This document shows, in pieces, positions 10,288 to 35,010 of a DNA stretch of 36,387 nt. The notes under the pieces were generated by a model. It saw only the letters and a list, made by a program, of their open reading frames with translations. It was not told the DNA's origin and ran no database searches. The stretch comes from Erysipelotrichaceae bacterium (GTDB taxonomy: Bacteria > Bacillota_I > Bacilli_A > RFN20 > CAG-826): contig DURD01000026.1 of NCBI GenBank assembly GCA_012837435.1, forward strand, positions 1-36,387, in the 5' to 3' direction. The stretch's first letter is position 1. Each line of letters starts with the position of its first letter. A program made the translations under genes and the position numbers.

Positions 10288-11109
10288 TTATTCTCCGATT
10301 ATTTTATTGATGATATCATGCATTTCTTCTAAATTCATCTTTTCAATTTCTCCCTGATCCATTAGTAACGAGTTTTTGCTATCTAATGGCAATCGACCTA
10401 GAATATTAAAATTCATCTCTTTAGCAAACTTTTCTAGAGAGGATTTTCCAAATAGAAAGATTTTTTCCTTACATTTTGGACAGAGGAGATAAGACATATT
10501 TTCAATCACCCCTAAAACTCGAATATTCATCATTTTTGCCATATTAAGAGCTTTAGAAACAATAAGAGAAACTAAATCTTGAGGGGAGGTAACGACAATT
10601 AAATCATCGATGGGTAAACTTTGGAATATCGTTAGAGCGACATCGCCGGTGCCAGGAGGCATATCAATCAACAAAACATCTAATTCGCCCCAAGCGACAT
10701 TTTCAAAAAACTGTACTACAAGATTAGAAACGAGCACCCCTCTCCAGAGAATAGGATCGGTTTCTTTTTCCAAAAGCATAGTCGCTGATATAACTTTGAT
10801 GCCCCCGATAGTTTCCGCGGGGAAGATATAATTTTCTTCTCCATAAGCTTTTTCTTTTATCCCAAAAGCTTTGGGAATACTGGGGCCGGTAATGTCCGCG
10901 TCGAGTATCCCCACGTTCAAACCTCTTCTCGATAAATAAGTAGCAATACTGGAGGTTACAAATGACTTACCGACCCCTCCTTTGCCACTTAAAACACCGA
11001 TAATTCTTTTGATTTTACTCAGCTCGTTAGGTTTTGATTTTTTTATTGGTTGACTAGCACAACTATCTTTTGCCCCACATTCGGTGCAGTTTCCATCACA
11101 ATGATCCAT
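10288..11109 (-). CDS. Mrp/Nbp35-type Fe-S cluster carrier P-loop ATPase
   Basis: 'GVLSGKGGVGKSFVTSSIA' deviant Walker A, 'DADITGPSIPKAFGI', 'DMPPGTGDVALT', 'CPKC'; N-terminal CX3CX2CX5C. Confidence 0.93.
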   Translation of the reverse strand: MDHCDGNCTECGAKDSCASQPIKKSKPNELSKIKRIIGVLSGKGGVGKSFVTSSIATYLSRRGLNVGILDADITGPSIPKAFGIKEKAYGEENYIFPAETIGGIKVISATMLLEKETDPILWRGVLVSNLVVQFFENVAWGELDVLLIDMPPGTGDVALTIFQSLPIDDLIVVTSPQDLVSLIVSKALNMAKMMNIRVLGVIENMSYLLCPKCKEKIFLFGKSSLEKFAKEMNFNILGRLPLDSKNSLLMDQGEIEKMNLEEMHDIINKIIGE

Positions 11110-11506: not shown

Positions 11507-14500
11507 TTAAGCATTTGCGTAAGTTTCCACTCTGTCTCCGTATTCTTTAAAGGAGAAGGTGTTGCTGTAAATGTTATTGTCTAGCAGCGGATCTTTTTTA
11601 GTCTCATCGACAGGAATAAAGTAAATGGGGTGTTTAGCTGGAGATAGTCCCAAAACTTTAAAATAGGAATGGGCTTCTGTTAGGTATAAGGCTCTCGCGA
11701 TTTCAGAATTTTTATTGTTTTCTCTTCCCATCTTGGTAAAGCATTCTTTTAAATGAGCAATTTTTTCAGGATTTACTAATAAAGAAGCGAAGTCTTTAAT
11801 GTCTGCTAAAGAGTCGAGAAGTCCCTCTAAACCATCTCTTTCGATGACATTAATCTTGTCATAACTTGCAAAAGTTAACAATTCCGCGTCATCTTCGCCA
11901 AAACTAAATAGTTCATAAACGTATGAAGCGTATGCTGCATCAGTCTCTAATTTATGATATTGATTTTCCAAAATAGTATTGAAGAGACCAGCGACGAATT
12001 CACTCACAATGGCGGAACGGCGATAATCGGCTTCTTCAACAGCACTTTCAGCGTTATAAGCACTTTCCACAATTCCTAGGATCAGAGCCTTTTTCGCTTG
12101 AATAGTTTCGGTATCTCCACCACCGAATGTCGTAGCATCTAAATTACCCTGTATGGAAGTGATTAGCTTCCTAATTCCTTGGGCTTCGACCGCCGGAGTG
12201 TCATGAGCATGAGTCTCATCGATGTACTCGATCATGTGAGCAATTTTGGAAAGGACGGCAATTTTTTGAATTTTTGTTCTAGCGGGAGTACTTTCATCAG
12301 CATCTCGAGCAACATAACTACAAACGGTGTCACCCATCGCATTGTAGAGCAAAATACCTTGAGCACTGATTTTTTGTGATTCGACAACATTGTACTCGTT
12401 GTAGTTACCTGCTAATGAAGTATTGAGAATACGGGAATTATAAATCAATCTCAGGATAGCCCCTAAGTGTTTATCGGCTTCCGCCCCACCCGCTAAGGTT
12501 GTAAAGTTGGTAAAGTTAGCGATATATTGACTTCCGGTTTCATCATATAGATCAGACATGGCGTTACAAATCGTGCTGATTTCTCCTTTATCAGTGCCCC
12601 CCACGGCATCTCCGCCATAAATTCCTTGACCTAAATAATAGTAAGCATAATTTTGCTCGTTATATGTCAATAAATTATCGATATTTAATGCGGCAAAGCC
12701 TCCTTTAATGAAAGATGGGACCGCATCGCTGATTAAATCTGAATTATTGATGCGGTGCAATAAGGCTTCCACTTTATTCGGAGCAATTTCATTGAAACTG
12801 AAACTAGATAAATCTAAACTAGCGGAGCCTTCATCGAGAGTAATGGCTTCGTTAGCTAGAAGCATAATTGAATCAATCTCTTGATTTGCACCAGTCCAGG
12901 CTTTGCCTTCCTCATTATGATAGTAAGGAGGAGTGTCGCCTAATAATAAGTTATCGTCGTCAGCGCGAGTTAGAAGTTTTACTTTAGCTCTTAATTTAGC
13001 TTCCGCAGTGGCATAGCCAATATCGTGAGCAGCGTCATAAGCAAAAGTATCAAGACCGACGAACGAACAGACTTTCGCCATTAATTCTTCGAATAAAGTA
13101 TAGCTATCTCCATCAAATTTATTCGTGTAATAGACATTAGGATAATTACGCGCTGGAGTGTGGAAGAGATTCGAATCGTGCATATGTTTGAGTAAGTTAG
13201 GCAGAGGACCATTGACCGCCTCTGTTTCATCCACTCCGATTAAATCGGCCAGTATTTGTGGAGCAGAAACACTTCCACCCGCTAGAAGCTCGTTGAAGTC
13301 TTGATAGTCTTCTAGGATAGTCATGATGTTAGAAATATCTTTAACCAAATAGCGGGCTTCGAAATTTACCGATGGTCTAAGAACATTATCATTATAGTAA
13401 TAATGATAGAATGGGTCGACTCGGTTAAATTCAACGCTTAAAGCTCCGCTAGAGATGCTTAGTTGATTATTTTTAACGAGCATATTGTATAGAGTGTTCG
13501 GGACACAGTCGTAAAGTAAACCACTAGAATTTAATATGTTAAATAAATTCTCAATAGTCTCGAGGTTATCGGATTTACTCATATCTGCGGAAGCAAAGTC
13601 CGCGACGGTTTGTCCAGCAGTATCGACCAAAGAATAAATCTGTTCAATGGCCTCCATCAATAGATCGATTTCATTACTTTGTTGGGTTAAAGAAGTGTCG
13701 ATATCAATACCAAGAGCGGCGGCATCATCATCAGTCAAAAAGGTTCTCAAAACTAAATATTTGACCTTATCCTCGGCGTTAGCGTATTGAGTAGCCGCTT
13801 TGTCTTTCGGTGAATCGTCACCTAAGTAAACGATATTTTTCATTTCGCTCATATCGAGCATAGAATGGAACAATCTCTGGAAGGTGGTTGGCTGATTATC
13901 GATAGAAGGACCAGCGCGATGGAAAACGAACGAATTATTTAAACTCGATAACGCTTCTTTGATATCGCTGACAAATCCTTCTTCATTCATCTTAGAAAAA
14001 TCAAAATCTCCACCGATGATACCACCGTCATCTTTAGCGCTATTGATAATATCGTAGAAGTTAATTAGAACGTTTAGCTCATCTTGTCGAGCCGGGCGTC
14101 CAAGATCAAAGTTTTGTATATCTTTGTTGCAGTCAACCATGTACACATTTCTTGCCGTACTCAAGTTGAAAGCACTATAGCCACTGAGCATCGCATCGCT
14201 GGCGATTAGGTAGAAATTGTATATACTCATCCGTAGGCAAGTCGTGTCATTAATTGACGTTAGTAAACCGCCTATCAATTCGGTGTCCATATTATCAAAA
14301 GCCACTAAATTACCCTCGCTATCCTTCACGACCAAGCGCATGACGTAGGACATGAATTTAACAAAGCGAGAAATTTCATCGACGTCGAAAAGTTCGTAAT
14401 CATCATAGTCACTGATAAAATCAGGATCCGCAAAATAACTCCCCCAAGGATTATCATAATATAGAGATTCCGTATTGGTAATATTCGAACCTTTATCCGC

Positions 14501-17500
14501 TTTAAAGTTGTTATGTTTAGCAATAAAGCTATCGTAATCACACCAGAATTTTGAGATATTTGTATAATCATCATCATCAATTCCTTCGGGGCTCACAAAA
14601 TCGCGATAAGCGATATAATGCGTCTTTTTAGCAGGGTCATAATATCGATCGTGCCATTCGGCAAAATATGGGTCAGTAGTTCCCGCATCGCCAGGACGAA
14701 TGCCCCACTCGGGATTCCAAGACCAATTTTCACCCGCTTTTGGAACAGGGTCAGCTAGTAAATCAAAAGAATCATCGCCCGCCTCAAATTCACTCAAAAG
14801 ATCATTCATCTTCGAGTAGAGCCATTTGCCAAATTGATAATGGGTGACATTCTCACTATCGATGTAAGTAAAGACACCAGAATTGGCTAATTCATGGAGC
14901 ATTTTATTTAATTCGATGACATTGGTGACATTAGCTATATCGAAATTCGACAAGAGGTCACCATCATCATCTTCAGGGAATAAGTCACATAGGGAATTTA
15001 AGAGATTGCGTATATTTATAGCTTCGGCTTCCCAATCCTTAATATTGCTGAAGCAAACACCATTATCAGTATCGATTAGGAAACCAGAAAGAGCATCGCC
15101 TAACATCTCATCGAGGAAGGGTCCTAACCTCTGAGAGAATATATAAGAACCACCAATGATAGTCAAGAAACCCGGTAAATCTATATGACCTTCTCCTGGA
15201 TCTTTTAGACTCTCGAGAGCTTCGCGTGTCATGCCACCCTCAAATACATCCGCGGCATTGAGAATGTCGTGGCTGGCGATGTAGTAGATGATATCGCCAA
15301 ACGCTTCAAATTCTGCGGACCAATCCGCTACTTCTTCTAAAGTCGCTCGAGGGACTACTAGACCGATATCAGCGGTGTTGTCAAAAAGACTACCTAACAT
15401 GCCATACAAGTTTTCGTTATGCACATAGGTATCACCAGCTTCGGGAACGGGGTTAATAATTGGATTTTCATATAAAACTTTTAAAACTGACACTAAAGAA
15501 TCAACCATATCTCGATCGTTTAACTTTTCTAAAGCATCAGAACCATCACCACCATCAAACAATGTGGATAGAGCGGCTAAATCATCCCATTTGTCAAATA
15601 GGGAAGATAGATCTGTAAAGAATTGCCGATTTTCTCTATCTCTTCTCATATCGTGATCGATGGCGCTAGCAATGACGTTGACATCAAGACCAATGTCTGA
15701 AAGCGTGTCAGCGAACTCTCCATCAGTAATAAGGGTTTTAATAACTGGAGTTAATATATTGTAGAGTAAAATCGAGTCGTCGATTTTGCTCATAGCGGTT
15801 TGGAGGGATTGGATATGTCTTTTTTCGATAGAGAAAGGATTACCTTCTTCAACCATCAAACCATCTAAGCCATTCTCGCTCATCAAAGCGTTCAAAAGTT
15901 CTTCGTTTTCAGCAATTGATGTCACAATACTCAAGATTGCGTGGAATTCTTTTTTATAGTTTTTCAACTTTTCGCCAGTATTTAAAATCGCTACCGCGGC
16001 TTTATAAGAATTAATATCAGCTTCGCTAAATTCCGCAGAAAGGTCTCCTAAAAATTCATAGTCGAATAAGTTAGTCATGAAGTTTGGTAGAATGTAGTTC
16101 ATCAAACTCATATCGAATAAGCAGTACTTTCTACCTTCGATACGTTCGCCGTTATTATCAAAAACTATCGTGCGACCATATTTATCAACATTGATTAGTT
16201 GATTATCAGCCACTTTTCCTACTAGTAAATCGCGAAAATCTTCAGCATATTCAGAAATTAGAGAGGACAAAGCGGGTATTTCTTCTCCCGCAGAAGGGGT
16301 AAGGGCTTCAGTTTGAACGAGAATTGCTTTGAAAAAATCATCATCTAAAGTCACCGCTTGATGCAAGAAATCTAGTAAAACATAGCATTCATAACCCCAA
16401 GAAATTTCATTTAGTTGTTCCCAAGAAAGGGGTAAAAATTGTCTAACTTCCCCAGTTTCGTCGCTTTCAAGACCAATATTTATCAAAACAGGTAAAACTC
16501 TAGAGATGATTTTTGACTTATCGATTAATCGAAATACTTCGAGAAGAGAATCGAAGTTTTCAGAATAAAGTATGTCATTTATAAGGAGGAAAACCTCTTG
16601 CTCATTTTCAACATTTCGTAAAGTTTTTCTACCATCCTCTCCTTCGACAAAGAGAAGGTCGACCACCCCACTATCGAATAAACAATTTGCCATTTCTTTG
16701 AGGTTAGAAACTTCGCTTTTCCATTCAAAATCACCAATGTTCAACATTTCTTTTGGAACGTTGTTTTCCAATAATTCGCTCAATATATCGCTGTTTAATG
16801 CTACTTCAACGGCGAGCGGTAAGACCGTGCCGAGTATTTGCGATTTGCCTAGAGAATCAAACACGGAGTTAACAACTTCCTTGGTAATAAAGGAGGTGGG
16901 CTCGACATTGAACTCTTCTCCTTCAATCTCCAAGCCATTGATAACGACCATGGCTAAATCAGTTAAATTAGCAATTTCGCTTACCAAACCAATAGCGACA
17001 TCTCCGCTGACGCCAGTCGTAAATGAATCGAATAGGCGGGTATCAAGAGTCATGCCCGAATCGTCAACCGTCCAATTGAAGAACACTTGCGCAAACAAAG
17101 AGTTATTATAAGCATCAATGAAATTTCCGACTGTCAAAATTATTTCGTTATCGTTGTCCGGACGATTTCTCTGATAAGCCTGGTTAACTGAATTGAGAAT
17201 CGAAGTAAACGGAATAAAAAACAAAACTGCCAGAGCAAAATAAGTTACCGCGTGTTCGATAGCTGCCACCCATCTAAATTTAACAATTTTCCGTGCAGCT
17301 TTAGGCACGATGCGTTTGAAAGCGATATGCCACATGATAAAGCAAAATAGATTGCCAAGAGTAACAATCAATACCATATCGACGATAAAAACAACTATTT
17401 TTAAAACCGAATCTACGACAGCTAAAGCAAAATTAGTAGCGCTCGCCTCTGTCACTGAAACGTTAAATAGAACGTAAAGTCCTTTAATTATTTCACCAAT

Positions 17501-17809
17501 AGTTTCCTTAACACTAGTCACAGGAATGTAATAGGTAAATGTTTCTCCTTCCACTACTCGAGAAACATAAAATTCTCCAGTGAGAAATTTTGAAAGGTCA
17601 AAGGAACTAATAAAATTCGTAAGAGGCCCTAAAGTTAACAAAGCGATAAAAACGAGAGAAAACATGAATAACATGCGATATGTTGATTTCCATATTCCTT
17701 TTTTAAAACCTATGAGGGCAGAAACTAATGTTGTAAGTAAAATCAACAGAAAGAGACCGAGTAATCCTCCCTCTACATACTGCATTATTTGTTCAGTGTT
17801 TATGTCCAT
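11507..17809 (-). CDS. Giant (~2100 aa) membrane-anchored protein with CvpA-like N-terminal TM region and a long uncharacterised repetitive region
   Basis: Single uninterrupted ORF; N-terminal TM segments 'GGLLGLFLLILLTTLVSALIGFKKGIWKSTYRML' and others, then ~1850 aa without recognisable domains. ATG at 17809 follows SD GGAGGG; the ORF-track start at 17824 is a TTG. Confidence 0.85.
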   Translation of the reverse strand: MDINTEQIMQYVEGGLLGLFLLILLTTLVSALIGFKKGIWKSTYRMLFMFSLVFIALLTLGPLTNFISSFDLSKFLTGEFYVSRVVEGETFTYYIPVTSVKETIGEIIKGLYVLFNVSVTEASATNFALAVVDSVLKIVVFIVDMVLIVTLGNLFCFIMWHIAFKRIVPKAARKIVKFRWVAAIEHAVTYFALAVLFFIPFTSILNSVNQAYQRNRPDNDNEIILTVGNFIDAYNNSLFAQVFFNWTVDDSGMTLDTRLFDSFTTGVSGDVAIGLVSEIANLTDLAMVVINGLEIEGEEFNVEPTSFITKEVVNSVFDSLGKSQILGTVLPLAVEVALNSDILSELLENNVPKEMLNIGDFEWKSEVSNLKEMANCLFDSGVVDLLFVEGEDGRKTLRNVENEQEVFLLINDILYSENFDSLLEVFRLIDKSKIISRVLPVLINIGLESDETGEVRQFLPLSWEQLNEISWGYECYVLLDFLHQAVTLDDDFFKAILVQTEALTPSAGEEIPALSSLISEYAEDFRDLLVGKVADNQLINVDKYGRTIVFDNNGERIEGRKYCLFDMSLMNYILPNFMTNLFDYEFLGDLSAEFSEADINSYKAAVAILNTGEKLKNYKKEFHAILSIVTSIAENEELLNALMSENGLDGLMVEEGNPFSIEKRHIQSLQTAMSKIDDSILLYNILTPVIKTLITDGEFADTLSDIGLDVNVIASAIDHDMRRDRENRQFFTDLSSLFDKWDDLAALSTLFDGGDGSDALEKLNDRDMVDSLVSVLKVLYENPIINPVPEAGDTYVHNENLYGMLGSLFDNTADIGLVVPRATLEEVADWSAEFEAFGDIIYYIASHDILNAADVFEGGMTREALESLKDPGEGHIDLPGFLTIIGGSYIFSQRLGPFLDEMLGDALSGFLIDTDNGVCFSNIKDWEAEAINIRNLLNSLCDLFPEDDDGDLLSNFDIANVTNVIELNKMLHELANSGVFTYIDSENVTHYQFGKWLYSKMNDLLSEFEAGDDSFDLLADPVPKAGENWSWNPEWGIRPGDAGTTDPYFAEWHDRYYDPAKKTHYIAYRDFVSPEGIDDDDYTNISKFWCDYDSFIAKHNNFKADKGSNITNTESLYYDNPWGSYFADPDFISDYDDYELFDVDEISRFVKFMSYVMRLVVKDSEGNLVAFDNMDTELIGGLLTSINDTTCLRMSIYNFYLIASDAMLSGYSAFNLSTARNVYMVDCNKDIQNFDLGRPARQDELNVLINFYDIINSAKDDGGIIGGDFDFSKMNEEGFVSDIKEALSSLNNSFVFHRAGPSIDNQPTTFQRLFHSMLDMSEMKNIVYLGDDSPKDKAATQYANAEDKVKYLVLRTFLTDDDAAALGIDIDTSLTQQSNEIDLLMEAIEQIYSLVDTAGQTVADFASADMSKSDNLETIENLFNILNSSGLLYDCVPNTLYNMLVKNNQLSISSGALSVEFNRVDPFYHYYYNDNVLRPSVNFEARYLVKDISNIMTILEDYQDFNELLAGGSVSAPQILADLIGVDETEAVNGPLPNLLKHMHDSNLFHTPARNYPNVYYTNKFDGDSYTLFEELMAKVCSFVGLDTFAYDAAHDIGYATAEAKLRAKVKLLTRADDDNLLLGDTPPYYHNEEGKAWTGANQEIDSIMLLANEAITLDEGSASLDLSSFSFNEIAPNKVEALLHRINNSDLISDAVPSFIKGGFAALNIDNLLTYNEQNYAYYYLGQGIYGGDAVGGTDKGEISTICNAMSDLYDETGSQYIANFTNFTTLAGGAEADKHLGAILRLIYNSRILNTSLAGNYNEYNVVESQKISAQGILLYNAMGDTVCSYVARDADESTPARTKIQKIAVLSKIAHMIEYIDETHAHDTPAVEAQGIRKLITSIQGNLDATTFGGGDTETIQAKKALILGIVESAYNAESAVEEADYRRSAIVSEFVAGLFNTILENQYHKLETDAAYASYVYELFSFGEDDAELLTFASYDKINVIERDGLEGLLDSLADIKDFASLLVNPEKIAHLKECFTKMGRENNKNSEIARALYLTEAHSYFKVLGLSPAKHPIYFIPVDETKKDPLLDNNIYSNTFSFKEYGDRVETYANA

Positions 17810-17892
17810 CGGCATTCCCTCCAATAACTAAAAGTTATGGTATATTTGTTCTTTACTTTAGTGTATAGTTTTTTTAATAGGATTAAAAGAAA

Positions 17893-20947: not shown

Positions 20948-21095
20948 TAGCAAAACACAAATTAAAAAAATACTTTTAGTTTCACTAGAAGAATTAAAGC
21001 GTTTTCGGTTAAATAAAACGCTTTTTAAAAATTTAAAAAGAAATAATTTAGCAATAGTTTAATTTATTAAAACATTAAAAATATGAATTGTTATT

Positions 21096-21147
21096 GACAT
21101 ATGTCAGAAAATAAGCGAACATTAAGTGAACGGACATATGTCAGAAA
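21096..21147. promoter_or_regulatory. Pair of identical palindromic boxes GACATATGTC(AGAAA), candidate operator of the ORP-like cluster
   Basis: Copy 1 21096-21110 and copy 2 21133-21147, both GACATATGTCAGAAA; the 10-bp core is perfectly self-complementary; start-to-start spacing 37 bp; immediately upstream of the DUF134 SD. Confidence 0.7.
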
Positions 21148-21167
21148 CTATTAAGGAGGTGAACAAT

Positions 21168-21605
21168 ATGCCAAGACCAAGAAAATGGAGAAATATTTGT
21201 CGTCTTCCTCGTTGCGATCGCTTTGGTCCTCATGGTTTTCCAGTGGATGATAACAACGCGGTTATCATGACTGTTGATGAATATGAAGCCATTAGATTAA
21301 TCGATCTAGAACGATTAACTCAAGAAGAATGCGCTAAGCAAATGAATGTCTCTCGCACGACAGTTCAAGGAATTTACGACGATGCTAGAAAAAAACTCGC
21401 CGATTCTCTAGTCAATGGAAAAATGCTTTTAATAAGAGGAGGCAAATATAGGCTTCGGGGCGATGATAGCAACCTTAATTGTGGAAGAGGATTCCGCAAG
21501 CACAAAAGATGTGTCGGAGGTTTTTCTTCAAAATTTAATGAGAAAAATTATTTGAATGATGATAGAAAGGAGATTTCAGATGATAATAGCCATACCGATA
21601 AATGA
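21168..21605 (+). CDS. DUF134 family DNA-binding protein (sigma-70 region 4-like HTH)
   Basis: 'MPRPRKWRNICRLPRCDRFGP...MTVDEYEAIRLIDLERLTQEECAKQMNVSRTTVQGIYDDARKKLADSLVNGK'. ATG 21168 with SD AAGGAGGTG preferred over the ORF-track GTG at 21126, which lies across the palindromes. Confidence 0.93.
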   Translation: MPRPRKWRNICRLPRCDRFGPHGFPVDDNNAVIMTVDEYEAIRLIDLERLTQEECAKQMNVSRTTVQGIYDDARKKLADSLVNGKMLLIRGGKYRLRGDDSNLNCGRGFRKHKRCVGGFSSKFNEKNYLNDDRKEISDDNSHTDK

Positions 21606-21945
21606 GAAAAATTTAGAAGCGACTGTGTGTCAGTCCTTTGGTAGAGCTCCGTATTTTCTTTTTTACAACACTGAAACAAAAGAGTGTCGCTACCTAAATA
21701 ATAGCGCCGCTACTTCTCAAGGCGGAGCGGGGATTAAAGCTGCCCAAATGATTGCCGATAATGGCGCCACTGTACTATTAACACCGCGCTGTGGTGAAAA
21801 TGCTGGGGAAGTATTAAGTAGGTCAAAAATAACAATCTATAAATCTATACCTGGTACCGTGCAACAAAATATCGATGCATTTTCAACTAATGAGCTTATT
21901 ACACTCGATGATTTTCACCCAGGGTTTCATCGTCGTGGAAGATAA
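21580..21945 (+). CDS. NifX/NifB-type dinitrogenase iron-molybdenum cofactor-binding family protein (first copy)
   Basis: 'MIIAIPINEKNLEATVCQSFGRAPYFLFYNTETKE...QGGAGIKAAQMIADNGATVLLTPRCGENAGEVL'; SD GAAAGGAG before ATG 21580. Confidence 0.9.
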   Translation: MIIAIPINEKNLEATVCQSFGRAPYFLFYNTETKECRYLNNSAATSQGGAGIKAAQMIADNGATVLLTPRCGENAGEVLSRSKITIYKSIPGTVQQNIDAFSTNELITLDDFHPGFHRRGR

Positions 21946-22792
21946 AAATCTAAAGATTGCTATCCTAAGTGGAAAAGGCGGTACCGGAAAAACCTTGGTC
22001 GCCGTTAATTTAGCTTCCGTTAGTGATAGATCAATGTATGTCGACTGCGATGTTGAAGAGCCGAATGGGCATTTGTTTTTTAAGCCACAAAATATCGAAA
22101 AAGAACTGGTCCATGTAAAAATACCAGTCATTGATAAAGACTTATGCAGTGGCTGTAGAAAATGCGTTGATTTTTGTAAATTTAACGCTCTTGCCTTTAT
22201 AGAAGACAAACCATACATTTTTGAAAATATCTGTCATTCGTGTGGTGGCTGTACTTTGGTTTGTCCAGAGAAAGCCATTAAAGAAAAAGATGTAAGTATT
22301 GGAGAAGTTCGAAGAGGTATTTCTGAAAATGTCAGTGTTCATTCGGGAATTATGAACACTGGAATTGCTTCTGGAGTTCCAATAATTAAAAGATTGCTCG
22401 AGAAGAAGAATGTCGATAAAGGAATTCCAGTCTTTATAGACTGTCCTCCTGGAAATTCTTGCATTGTCATGGAAAGCATACAAGATGCAGATTATTGCAT
22501 ACTCGTTGCGGAACCAACAATTTTTGGTGCTCATAATCTGGCATTAGTTTACGACTTAGTAAAACTTTTTAAAAAACCCCATGGTGTTGTTTTAAACAAG
22601 AATCTAAAAGGAGATAATCCGATAGAAAAGTTTTGTTTAGAAAAAAATATTCCTATCTTGATTGATATACCTTTTGACCAAGAACTTGGTGAACTTAATT
22701 CGAACGCTAAAATCGCCGTTAGAGAAAATAGTAAGTATAAAAAAATGTTTGCGGCATTGCTTGAACGTTTAATGAAGGAGGTGCAAACATGA
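21935..22792 (+). CDS. MinD/ParA-type P-loop ATPase with inserted two-[4Fe-4S] ferredoxin domain (ORP-cluster type)
   Basis: 'IAILSGKGGTGKTLVAVNLA', 'CSGCRKCVDFCKFNAL', 'CHSCGGCTLVCPEKAI', 'DCPPGNSC'. Likely GTG start at 21935, overlapping the previous gene. Confidence 0.93.
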   Translation: MEDKNLKIAILSGKGGTGKTLVAVNLASVSDRSMYVDCDVEEPNGHLFFKPQNIEKELVHVKIPVIDKDLCSGCRKCVDFCKFNALAFIEDKPYIFENICHSCGGCTLVCPEKAIKEKDVSIGEVRRGISENVSVHSGIMNTGIASGVPIIKRLLEKKNVDKGIPVFIDCPPGNSCIVMESIQDADYCILVAEPTIFGAHNLALVYDLVKLFKKPHGVVLNKNLKGDNPIEKFCLEKNIPILIDIPFDQELGELNSNAKIAVRENSKYKKMFAALLERLMKEVQT

Positions 22793-23700
22793 AACAGCTA
22801 TTAATCCTAAGCGGTAAAGGCGGTACCGGAAAAACCACTGTCGCTAGTGCTTTTATAAAATTATTAAAGGCGAAGACTTACGCTGATTGCGATGTTGATG
22901 CCCCTAATCTCCATTTAGTTATGGCTCAAAAAAGCGAACCTAAAAAAACAGATTATTATGGAATGCCAGTCGCTGTAATTAACAAAGACAAATGCATTAG
23001 ATGTGGGTTATGTAAAGAAAGTTGTCGATTCGAGGCCATCAGTCTAGAAGACGATTTCAAAATTAATCCTTTTGCTTGTGAAGGATGTGGAGTTTGTGAA
23101 TTGGTTTGTCCCGTAAATGCTGTAAACTTAAAACCTGCTATTTCAGGACAGTTAACTCTTTACGCTGATGACGAAAATACTTTTTCAACGGCCCAGTTAA
23201 AAATGGGAGTGGGTGCTTCTGGTTTGCTCGTAACTGAAGTAAAAAAACAGATGAAAACGGCAGCGAACCCAAGAACTAAGATTGCTATCATCGATGGATC
23301 TCCAGGAATAGGTTGTCCTGTCATCGCGTCTTTAAGTGGCGTTGATATGGTTCTGATTGTTGCCGAACCTTCTGTTTCGGGAATTAGCGATATGGAACGA
23401 ATTATAAAAACCGCCAGAACCTTTGAAACGCAAATTGCTGTTTGTGTAAATAAATACGATAGCAATATTTTACACACTCAAAAAATAGAAAACTTTTGTA
23501 AGGAAGAAGGAATAGTTTTTACAGGAAAAATACCTTTCGATGAAAACGCTGTTAAAGCAATTAACAATGGGCAAACTGTAGTTGATATCGATTGTCCCTC
23601 GGGATTAGCTATAAGAAAAGTATTCAAAGAAACAATGTTGCTTCTTCAAGAAAATAATCAAAAATCATTTAAAAATGTAAATATGGAGGAAAAAATATGA
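22789..23700 (+). CDS. MinD/ParA-type P-loop ATPase with inserted two-[4Fe-4S] ferredoxin domain (second copy)
   Basis: 'LLILSGKGGTGKTTVASAF', 'CIRCGLCKESCRFEAI', 'CEGCGVCELVCPVNAV', 'DGSPGIGCPVIASLSG'; ATGA overlaps with both neighbours. Confidence 0.94.
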   Translation: MKQLLILSGKGGTGKTTVASAFIKLLKAKTYADCDVDAPNLHLVMAQKSEPKKTDYYGMPVAVINKDKCIRCGLCKESCRFEAISLEDDFKINPFACEGCGVCELVCPVNAVNLKPAISGQLTLYADDENTFSTAQLKMGVGASGLLVTEVKKQMKTAANPRTKIAIIDGSPGIGCPVIASLSGVDMVLIVAEPSVSGISDMERIIKTARTFETQIAVCVNKYDSNILHTQKIENFCKEEGIVFTGKIPFDENAVKAINNGQTVVDIDCPSGLAIRKVFKETMLLLQENNQKSFKNVNMEEKI

Positions 23701-24050
23701 AAATAGCCATTGCTTGTGAAGGAAAAAATATTACCGAACATTTTGGTCACTGCTCAAACTTTTTAATTTTTGATGTTGAAGACCAGGAAATTAAAAATGA
23801 AATATCTCTACCAAATCCTGGTCATAAACCTGGTTTTTTACCAAATTTCCTAGCTGATAAAGGTGTCAATGTCATCATCAGCGGAGGAATGGGAGGAGGT
23901 GCGGTCAGCATCTTCAACGAAAGAAATGTTGAAGTTATCTTAGGGGCGTCAGGTGACGCTAAAAATGCCGTTAAAGATTATATTGACGGCAAATTAAAAT
24001 CGACAGGTTCTGTTTGTCATCAGCATCATCATGATGAATGTAATAAATAA
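23697..24050 (+). CDS. NifX/NifB-type iron-molybdenum cofactor-binding family protein (second copy) with Cys/His tail
   Basis: 'MKIAIACEGKNITEHFGHCSNFLIFDVED...GVNVIISGGMGGGAVSIFNERNVEVILGASGDAKNAVKDYIDGKL', C-terminal 'CHQHHHDEC'. Confidence 0.93.
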   Translation: MKIAIACEGKNITEHFGHCSNFLIFDVEDQEIKNEISLPNPGHKPGFLPNFLADKGVNVIISGGMGGGAVSIFNERNVEVILGASGDAKNAVKDYIDGKLKSTGSVCHQHHHDECNK

Positions 24051-24056
24051 CAAAAA

Positions 24057-24082
24057 CACCGCAAGGTTCAACACTTGCGGTG
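24057..24082 (-). terminator. Intrinsic terminator hairpin for the minus-strand zinc-ribbon gene
   Basis: Perfect 9-bp stem CACCGCAAG / CTTGCGGTG; reading on the minus strand it is followed by TTTTTG. The plus strand lacks a U-tract. Confidence 0.8.
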
Positions 24083-24097
24083 ACAATGGAATCAAAT

Positions 24098-24412
24098 TTA
24101 TTTATCAGAATTCCCTTTGTTTTGCTTCATTTTTTTAAAGCATTCGTTACAGTAAACAGGACGGTCGTCGTGGGGTTCGAAGGGAACCTCGCAACTGCAT
24201 CCACATGAAGCACAAACTGCAGGATACATATGGCGGTGACCGTCTTTATCGTTTCCGTTAGCGTTGTGGCTAGCTTTTCTAGCATCGCGACATGCTTTGC
24301 AGCGTTGTGGCTCGTTTGTAAAGCCTTTTTCTGCGAAGAATTCCTGCTCTCTAGCAGTGAAAGTGAAGCTTTGTCCGCAATCTTTGCAGACGATTGTTTT
24401 GTCTTTGTACAT
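24098..24412 (-). CDS. Zinc-ribbon protein (zf-trcl-like)
   Basis: 'MYKDKTIVCKDCGQSFTFTAREQEFFAEKGFTNEPQRCKACRDARK', then 'CASCGCSCEVPFEPHDDRPVYCNECF'. Confidence 0.88.
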   Translation of the reverse strand: MYKDKTIVCKDCGQSFTFTAREQEFFAEKGFTNEPQRCKACRDARKASHNANGNDKDGHRHMYPAVCASCGCSCEVPFEPHDDRPVYCNECFKKMKQNKGNSDK

Positions 24413-32700: not shown

Positions 32701-35010
32701 TTACGAGCATACTATTTCGTCTGTTTTGACTGGATGTTTTTTGTTATATATGGCAATCGCGCCCGCGAGTAAAACAAAGGCCGCTAGCCAAATAAATAGA
32801 GTCCACCACCATGAGCCCACTGTGTAAATTATTGAACTTACGATGTAACTTGTTCCAATCCAAAATAATGTGGTGGTAAGTAGTTTTCCTTTTGGTAGTT
32901 CATTTTTCGCAGTTGCTATTGTAGCAAAGCAAGGGATGGTCAACACATTGAAAGCGATAAAAGAAATTAATCCGGGAATAGTGATTCCAGTGGCTTCAAT
33001 CATGCTGTGGACATAGAGAATGCCGGTAGCGTCTTCAACGGGGAGAGCCCCACTTGCCGTCGCGATGCAAGCCGATAAGGTGCCAAATGTGGCAATGACA
33101 TTTTCTTTAGCGATTAGACCAGTAATGGCGCTTAATGCGAAAACAAAACCCCATTTTGTCAGTTGAGAGCCGAACCCAAGAGGTGTAAGAATTGGTTGGA
33201 CAAACATACCGATATTAGCAAGAATTGATTGATCAATTTGTTCATCTGGCAAATATGACCAATTCCATGAAAAGTGGGAAAATAGCCAAATGACAATAGT
33301 ACTAGCCAATATGATTGTGAAGGCCTTTATGACAAAGCGCGCAGCTTTGTCCCACAGATGAATCATTAGCGATTTAAATTGAGGAAGACGATAGTTCGGA
33401 AGTTCCATGACAAAAGGTGGTACTTCGCCTCTATTAATTGTATGACGCATGATGATGATAGCTACGATTGCAGTCACCATGCCTAACAAATACATGCTAT
33501 AAGTTATGAAATCAGCATTGCCAACACCAAAATACATGACAATAGCGCCCGCGACAGCAGTTAGGATTGGAAGTTTTGCCCCACAAGAGAAAAACGGTAT
33601 GACTCGTATAGTAGCGGTTTTTTCTTTTTCATCCGCGAGAGTCCGGGTATTGATTATCGCTGGAACCGAACAACCAAAACCCATAATCATCGGCATGAAG
33701 GCTCTTCCAGACAAACCATATCTTCTAAAGATTCTATCTAAAATGAAAGCGACACGAGCCATATAGCCCGAATCTTCCAAAATAGCAAATAATAAGAACA
33801 ATACTAAAATAGGTGGTAAGAAACTAAGAACGGCTGCTAGTCCATCGATAATACCGTTATTTAGTAGTCCAATAGCCCAGTCAGACATACCGCTATTGCT
33901 AACTAGCTCTTGAATCCAGCCAAACATCTCGCCGACCAGCATCTCATTCCAAACGTTGTTTAGCATAACACCTGGCGAAAATATCGCTCCATCATATATA
34001 CATGCGAGCCATCTAATTCCATAGGCTTCCGTATCCATTCCTAGTTCTTCTAATGTAGGCATAGAAAATATCTTACCTAAGAAAAATAGATCTTCTGAAA
34101 ATGTTAAGTGAAAAATTGAAAACAAGATTAGAAGAAAGATTGGTATAGCCAGCCATTTATTAGTGAGAACATTATCGATTTTTTCACTTCTGGTGGCTGG
34201 TGTTTTCTTAGTTTTGATTTTATCTGTGTTTTTTCCTATTTTTACAATTCCATCATATTTTGAAGAAATATATCTATATCTTTCACTGGCGATAAGAGCT
34301 TCAAAATCTAATCCGAATGTCTCGTCAGAAAAAGTTTTTTCAAATTCGTGAACCATATTTAGTAATCCTGGATGGTTTTTCACTTCCTCTTCATCTCTTT
34401 CCACGAGTTTTATAGCATGAAATAAGGGGTGTGGGACACGGATTCCCCTAAAAGCAATTTCAACATCCCCAATGAGGTGTTTTAAATCTTTCTGCTCAAT
34501 GATGGTCTGTCCTTTTCTAGTTTTTTTACTTTCCTTATAAGCGACTTCCATGAGACTATCGAGATTTTCTTCTTTAAGCGCGGAAATAGGAACGACGGGT
34601 ATACCAAATTCTTTTTCTAATTTGCCGATATCGATTGAAATATTGGACTTTACTACTTCGTCCATCATATTTAAAGCAATAACGATAGGAATGTCTGTTT
34701 CCATGGCTTGAGTAGTTAAGTAAAGATTTCTCTCTAAATTAGTGGCGTCAACGATATTGATAATACAATCAGGATTTTCATCTAAGATATAGTTTCTCGA
34801 TATCACTTCTTCGCTCGTATAAGGTGATAAAGAATAAATACCTGGTAAATCGATAATCGATACTTTTTCTTCTAGTTTTTTGTAAACGCCTACCCTTTTT
34901 TCCACAGTCACTCCTGGCCAGTTTCCTACGCGAGCAGTACTGCCAGTCAAACAATTAAAAAGAGTGGTTTTACCGGAATTAGGATTTCCTAGCAACGCAA
35001 AACATTTCAT
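32701..35010 (-). CDS. feoB: Ferrous iron transport protein B
   Basis: 'LLGNPNSGKTTLFNCLTGSTARVGNWPGVTVEKRVG', 'IIDLPGIYSLSPYTSEE', large membrane domain with 'GFGCSVPAI' and 'FFSCGAKLPIL'. Confidence 0.97.
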   Translation of the reverse strand: MKCFALLGNPNSGKTTLFNCLTGSTARVGNWPGVTVEKRVGVYKKLEEKVSIIDLPGIYSLSPYTSEEVISRNYILDENPDCIINIVDATNLERNLYLTTQAMETDIPIVIALNMMDEVVKSNISIDIGKLEKEFGIPVVPISALKEENLDSLMEVAYKESKKTRKGQTIIEQKDLKHLIGDVEIAFRGIRVPHPLFHAIKLVERDEEEVKNHPGLLNMVHEFEKTFSDETFGLDFEALIASERYRYISSKYDGIVKIGKNTDKIKTKKTPATRSEKIDNVLTNKWLAIPIFLLILFSIFHLTFSEDLFFLGKIFSMPTLEELGMDTEAYGIRWLACIYDGAIFSPGVMLNNVWNEMLVGEMFGWIQELVSNSGMSDWAIGLLNNGIIDGLAAVLSFLPPILVLFLLFAILEDSGYMARVAFILDRIFRRYGLSGRAFMPMIMGFGCSVPAIINTRTLADEKEKTATIRVIPFFSCGAKLPILTAVAGAIVMYFGVGNADFITYSMYLLGMVTAIVAIIIMRHTINRGEVPPFVMELPNYRLPQFKSLMIHLWDKAARFVIKAFTIILASTIVIWLFSHFSWNWSYLPDEQIDQSILANIGMFVQPILTPLGFGSQLTKWGFVFALSAITGLIAKENVIATFGTLSACIATASGALPVEDATGILYVHSMIEATGITIPGLISFIAFNVLTIPCFATIATAKNELPKGKLLTTTLFWIGTSYIVSSIIYTVGSWWWTLFIWLAAFVLLAGAIAIYNKKHPVKTDEIVCS

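Follow-up and report, generated by a model that had tools for sequence, protein, structure and literature searches.

The closest described relatives of the gene cluster considered here are the orange protein (ORP) genes of Desulfovibrio vulgaris. In that organism, orp comprises two divergent operons that are driven by sigma54 together with the activator DVU2106 and IHF (PMC3897727). Two other systems invite comparison. The first is MrpORP, in which an Mrp/NBP35 ATPase is fused to a NifX domain, and the second is region 4 of sigma factors, as represented by E. coli sigmaE region 4 on -35 DNA (2h27).

The first gene of the cluster encodes a member of DUF134 (UPF0251, PF02001), which is listed as a family of unknown function. 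Our literature search yielded no paper that assigns a function to DUF134 or names an operator for it; subscription literature lay largely outside the search, and an earlier description is possible. A search for the palindrome described below yielded only work on E. coli motif modelling. One genetic observation concerns the family: an insertion in the UPF0251 gene Tsac_2480 is among the secondary mutations of adapted delta-rex strains of Thermoanaerobacterium saccharolyticum (PMC5886521).

We analysed a stretch of 36,387 nucleotides (the window) from an Erysipelotrichaceae bacterium whose genome assembly comprises 1.125 Mb in 44 contigs and is 93.6% complete. We consider it probable that the cluster is an ORP/MrpORP-type operon in which DUF134 serves as a dedicated, cluster-responsive repressor that sits over the -35 element. 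The most informative feature of the locus is a tandem operator ahead of the DUF134 gene, which was absent from the original prediction made for this DNA.

Gene content of the cluster

The five genes all lie on the plus strand. DUF134 (21168-21605) encodes a predicted sigma-region-4-like DNA-binding repressor of 145 aa and scores 88.9 bits against PF02001, where the cut-off is 27. Its most likely start is the ATG at 21168 behind AAGGAGGTG, rather than an upstream GTG. NifX-a (21580-21945) is an ORP/MTH1175-like protein (PF02579, 77.7 bits against a cut-off of 26.3) whose matches to 1eo1 (8e-16), 1rdu (9e-16) and the ORP structure 2wfb (E 1e-10) indicate that an Orp8-like NifX-domain protein is present. 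Two P-loop ATPases with Fer4 insertions follow, MinD-Fd 1 (21935-22792, with its start refined to GTG 21935) and MinD-Fd 2 (22789-23700). Each carries the deviant Walker A sequence SGKGGTGK and two inserted 4Fe-4S motifs of the form CxxCxxCxxxC, which read CSGCRKCVDFC and CHSCGGCTLVC in MinD-Fd 1 and CIRCGLCKESC and CEGCGVCELVC in MinD-Fd 2. These twin ferredoxin-MinD ATPases, and MinD-Fd 1 in its own right, resemble Orp3/Orp4 (PMC6345978). The last gene, NifX-b (23697-24050; PF02579, 79.7 bits), has a His/Cys-rich tail (CHQHHHDEC), matches 2yx6, 1t3v and 1o13, and aligns with MrpORP only over positions 265-365 of 365 (6e-32, 111 bits against a cut-off of 450). The reading frames of all five genes are intact, as are their metal and ATP motifs. 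Translational coupling of the genes is plausible, since each start overlaps the preceding stop (21580 inside DUF134, which stops at 21605; 21935/21945; 22789/22792; 23697/23700).

Pfam profile searches and the coordinates bear out the five genes, families and overlaps given in the original prediction. The resemblance to an ORP gene set that it proposed is upheld by the match of NifX-a to 2wfb, by that of NifX-b to the C-terminal domain of MrpORP and by the paired ATPases. On the basis of gene content, the cluster can be called ORP-like, which is a narrower claim than identity with the ORP complex. The prediction had noted the lack of nitrogenase and molybdenum genes in the window, and this extends to the genome, where ModA and MoeA were not found at 93.6% completeness and no NifH rose over the cut-off. 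PF02579 occurs at only two places in the genome, NifX-a and NifX-b, and the cluster is present once. Given no NifH over cut-off and PF02579 only at the cluster, we rejected a nitrogenase or FeMo-co context, and molybdenum use was set aside on the failure to find ModA and MoeA. The Mo-Cu-S cluster that had been suggested for this system, S2MoS2CuS2MoS2 in the ORP complex, is less likely because those two proteins went undetected. A ParA/MinD-like positional role, also raised earlier, found no support: the C-terminal hydrophobic moments of the MinD-Fd ATPases (0.68 and 0.44) stay below the 95th percentile for unrelated ORFs, which is 0.73, and this leaves no strong C-terminal amphipathic helix.

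Several features of the surrounding DNA deserve mention. The T-run of an inverted repeat at 24057-24082 is on the minus strand, which places the predicted terminator with the convergent zinc-finger protein gene at 24098-24412. A stand-alone Mrp/ApbC Fe-S carrier ATPase is encoded outside the operon at 10288-11109 on the minus strand (PF10609, 290.6 bits). A single frame of 2105 aa occupies 11507-17824 (minus strand); it has several apparent N-terminal membrane helices and an otherwise acidic sequence, and gave no Pfam match at 1e-5. A FeoB ferrous-iron transporter gene lies at 32701-35010 (minus strand), without a DUF134 operator ahead of it.

A tandem operator at the promoter

The 1.125-Mb genome contains just two copies of GACATATGTC, both upstream of DUF134 and 37 bp apart. 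The upstream operator, TGACATATGTCA, is located at 21095-21106 and includes the -35 hexamer TTGACA at 21094-21099, and the downstream operator, GGACATATGTCA, is located at 21132-21143. Every other site in this genome with one mismatch is either inside coding sequence or overlaps a start codon, which left no further operator targets.

The first four relatives inspected share the operator element, and the pattern holds in a wider sample that spans several phyla. When GTDB genomes were scanned with DUF134, 185 relatives were confirmed and 80 loci were kept. The palindrome TGRCATATGYCA is found exactly in 61 of the 80 loci, and in 78 with no more than one mismatch. In total there are 95 exact sites, where 360 permuted palindromes of equal composition average 0.58, although the loci share ancestry and were chosen with DUF134 queries, so the 95 are not independent events. 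The sole other high count in the permutation test came from an overlapping form of the TGRCATATGYCA site itself. The first site has the extended consensus AGTTATTGACATATGTCAtAAAC, a near-palindrome of about 24 bp.

The sites are mostly paired, with a spacing of 32-43 bp, and 65 such tandem pairs were compared. TTGACA falls inside the first site in 62 of these pairs, and in 61 a -10 box matching at least five of the six TATAAT positions follows the -35 element by 15-17 bp, as opposed to 4.4% at random positions. The other site of the pair then falls beyond the expected start site. One locus (L105, 4743-6372) has two divergent DUF134 operons that share a common intergenic region with four operator sites.

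Conceivably, DUF134 bound to the palindrome acts as an activator of the operon, perhaps one that aids polymerase at a weak promoter. The window promoter might be read in this way, in that its -10 sequence, GAACAT, agrees at only three of six positions and ranks last among the 65 tandem-operator promoters. The -10 box of a genus-mate (L115, the same DNA as L005 of genome G011) is also poor, at four of six, and the operators are intact in both. However, the near-consensus -10 boxes in 61 of 65 promoters imply that the typical promoter should be strong unaided, and sites over the -35 element and downstream of the start form a classical repressor layout. We therefore regard activation as unlikely, while granting it more weight than the alternatives taken up below, and retain repression by DUF134 as the preferred reading.

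Association of the operator with DUF134 and ORP-type operons

To what extent the site belongs to DUF134 can be judged from 395 Bacilli genomes, in which a pattern scan for TTGACATATGYCA was combined with a separate HMM scan for DUF134. Site and protein occur together in 45 of these genomes (odds ratio 20.7, Fisher p 4e-23, a value that is not corrected for kinship). An exact site lies within 1 kb upstream of 33 of the 73 Bacilli DUF134 genes, where about 0.01 would be expected. The exact tandem pattern was found in three of 392 genomes and its reversed control in none; it precedes DUF134 and ORP-type genes in two of the three (G259 and G148) and Mrp and NifXb in the other (G120). In at least 11 genomes the site stands ahead of DUF5320-NifXa-MinD1 or Mrp operons while DUF134 is located elsewhere, which argues for a link to this type of operon and not merely to a neighbouring gene.

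Most of the other exact single-site matches in the class scan fall inside coding sequence, several of them in one recurring reductase-like gene. These look like chance matches, and for this reason a site was taken as a target only if it was intergenic, promoter-like or tandem. One genome (G452) has sites ahead of an apparent NuoE/HydC-type subunit gene (L172, 2001) and a pyridine-nucleotide-disulfide-reductase-like gene (L175, 2002). Both are possible further targets of DUF134, in this one genome only.

A different regulator might bind the palindrome, with DUF134 as no more than a frequent passenger of the operon. In support of this proposal, 26 of the 71 site-bearing genomes have no DUF134 match over the cut-off, although most of those inspected have sites in coding sequence; furthermore, G252 and G364 carry true ORP-type sites and DUF134 was not found in them. 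Against it, these two genomes may be incomplete, DUF134 is the gene that most regularly adjoins the site and is itself an HTH protein, and it occurs in genomes whose ORP sites are distant from it. We judge the involvement of another regulator to be improbable, somewhat more so than activation. The sequence statistics establish that the site is conserved, that it overlies the -35 box and that it goes with both DUF134 and ORP-type operons, and they favour DUF134 as the protein that recognizes it.

Distribution and variants of the operon

The original prediction took the cluster for a stripped-down module. A reading of the gene combination as unusual, a rare novelty, was rejected: neighbourhood comparison reveals a widespread and common operon of anaerobes, with the 80 loci coming from Clostridia, Tissierellia, Erysipelotrichia, Spirochaetes, Chloroflexi, Dojkabacteria and others. 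About half of them have the order DUF134-NifXa-MinD1-MinD2, usually with NifXb. Recurrent additions are a DUF5320 protein ahead of DUF134, a NifU_N/IscU scaffold (15 loci), a metallo-beta-lactamase protein (25 loci), and Mrp/ApbC either beside NifXb or fused to it as MrpORP. The window operon is a short form that has neither the IscU-type scaffold, the metallo-beta-lactamase protein nor Mrp, its Mrp/ApbC gene being 10 kb away, and the description of the cluster as minimal is fair when set against relatives that carry these genes. The DUF5320 proteins are small and Gly/Arg-rich (for example L005 275-586 and L004 1815-2096) and are usually encoded by the first gene after the operator; the window operon has none.

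Occurrence is patchy, with a DUF134 match in six of 115 relatives. In a quick tree, the MinD1 protein of the window and that of the genus-mate L115 are placed apart from each other, which suggests, though it does not prove, that the two clusters were acquired separately. Herbinix hemicellulosilytica and Thermoclostridium caenicola (L050 and L051), which belong to different families, have almost the same MinD1, and this suggests either recent transfer or mixed cultures.

Properties of the DUF134 protein

The sequence of DUF134 identifies a sigma-region-4 HTH (Sigma70_r4, 4e-6), with a profile match to the sigma factor 5uxx at 0.003. In the predicted structure, the HTH core has a pLDDT of about 90 and superimposes on region-4 structures with an rmsd of 0.5-1.0 A over about 47 residues. 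The short length of the HTH, close to those 47 residues, accounts for the weak Foldseek E-values (0.08-0.6) of these matches. The protein is not a sigma factor, as its 145 aa include a region-4-like HTH only and no region 2.

Within the family, Cys 11 is invariant and Cys 97 and 105 are nearly so. An open frame of at least 225 aa is present in 29 of the 73 Bacilli DUF134 genes, and in all eight of the long frames inspected DUF134 is fused to a NifX domain; most of the eight also have a His/Cys-rich tail. These conserved cysteines and fusions make cluster or metal status a natural candidate for the signal to which DUF134 would respond. The protein encoded in the window does not have three cysteines that are frequent in relatives (C12, C97 and C109). 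Together with the poor -10 box, this suggests that the window copy may be either weakly expressed or under altered control.

A proposed mechanism

The specificity of DUF134 for the palindrome is well supported. In the following proposal, we infer not only physical contact with this DNA and a repressing instead of an activating effect, but also the signal and the biochemical task of the complex. The operon would encode a single complex of the ORP/MrpORP type for the assembly or delivery of a metal-sulfur cluster, in which NifX-a and NifX-b would hold the cluster and the two ferredoxin-MinD ATPases would provide electrons and ATP-driven binding or transfer. DUF134, the product of the first gene, would be the operon's dedicated repressor and would bind (AGTTAn)TGRCATATGYCA(nTAACT) as a dimer of sigma-region-4-like HTH units, each half of this palindrome resembling a -35 box. 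One dimer would cover the -35 element of the promoter in place of sigma, and a second would bind about 37 bp downstream, beyond the start site. RNA polymerase would thereby be excluded and DUF134 would restrict its own synthesis. Repression would shift when the cysteines of DUF134, or the fused NifX domain elsewhere, report on the supply of metal-sulfur clusters.

The far less probable idea of a miniature Desulfovibrio Mo-Cu-S orange protein complex that acts in cell-division positioning, to which we give the least credence, accommodates the likeness of NifX-a to 2wfb and of the ATPases to Orp3/Orp4 but conflicts with the failure to find ModA and MoeA, the different promoter type, the lack of the MrpORP fusion in the operon and the lack of a strong C-terminal amphipathic helix in the ATPases.

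More generally, we tentatively suggest, at somewhat short of even confidence, that DUF134 is a repressor family derived from sigma region 4 that competes with sigma at two inverted -35 boxes and that, together with NifX-domain proteins, to which it is fused in many Bacilli, acts as a metal-sulfur-cluster sensor controlling ORP-type operons of anaerobes across several phyla. The operator gives this family a directly testable role. At 12-24 bp, it also ties NifX-domain proteins to gene regulation and provides a motif with which members of the regulon can be found in any genome. Moreover, learning what alters repression would reveal what ORP-type complexes respond to, and hence their purpose.

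Comparison with known systems

Like the ORP complex and orp operons of D. vulgaris (Orp3, Orp4, Orp5, Orp8 and Orp9), the cluster is found in an anaerobe and brings together twin ferredoxin-MinD ATPases and NifX-type proteins. Unlike the D. vulgaris genes, those of the window form a single operon with a sigma70-type promoter (-35 TTGACA) and tandem DUF134 operators, and they are accompanied by neither MrpORP, for which a profile search of the operon was negative, nor detectable molybdenum genes. The likeness to MrpORP is confined to its C-terminal domain, which NifX-b matches; in other species Mrp is found beside NifX-b or fused to it, whereas in the window it is encoded by a separate gene. 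With sigma factor region 4, DUF134 shares the HTH fold, and its operator half-site, TTGACA, is similar to the -35 element that region 4 contacts. Where region 4 recruits polymerase, DUF134 is predicted to block it, acting as a dimer on two such elements in inverted orientation.
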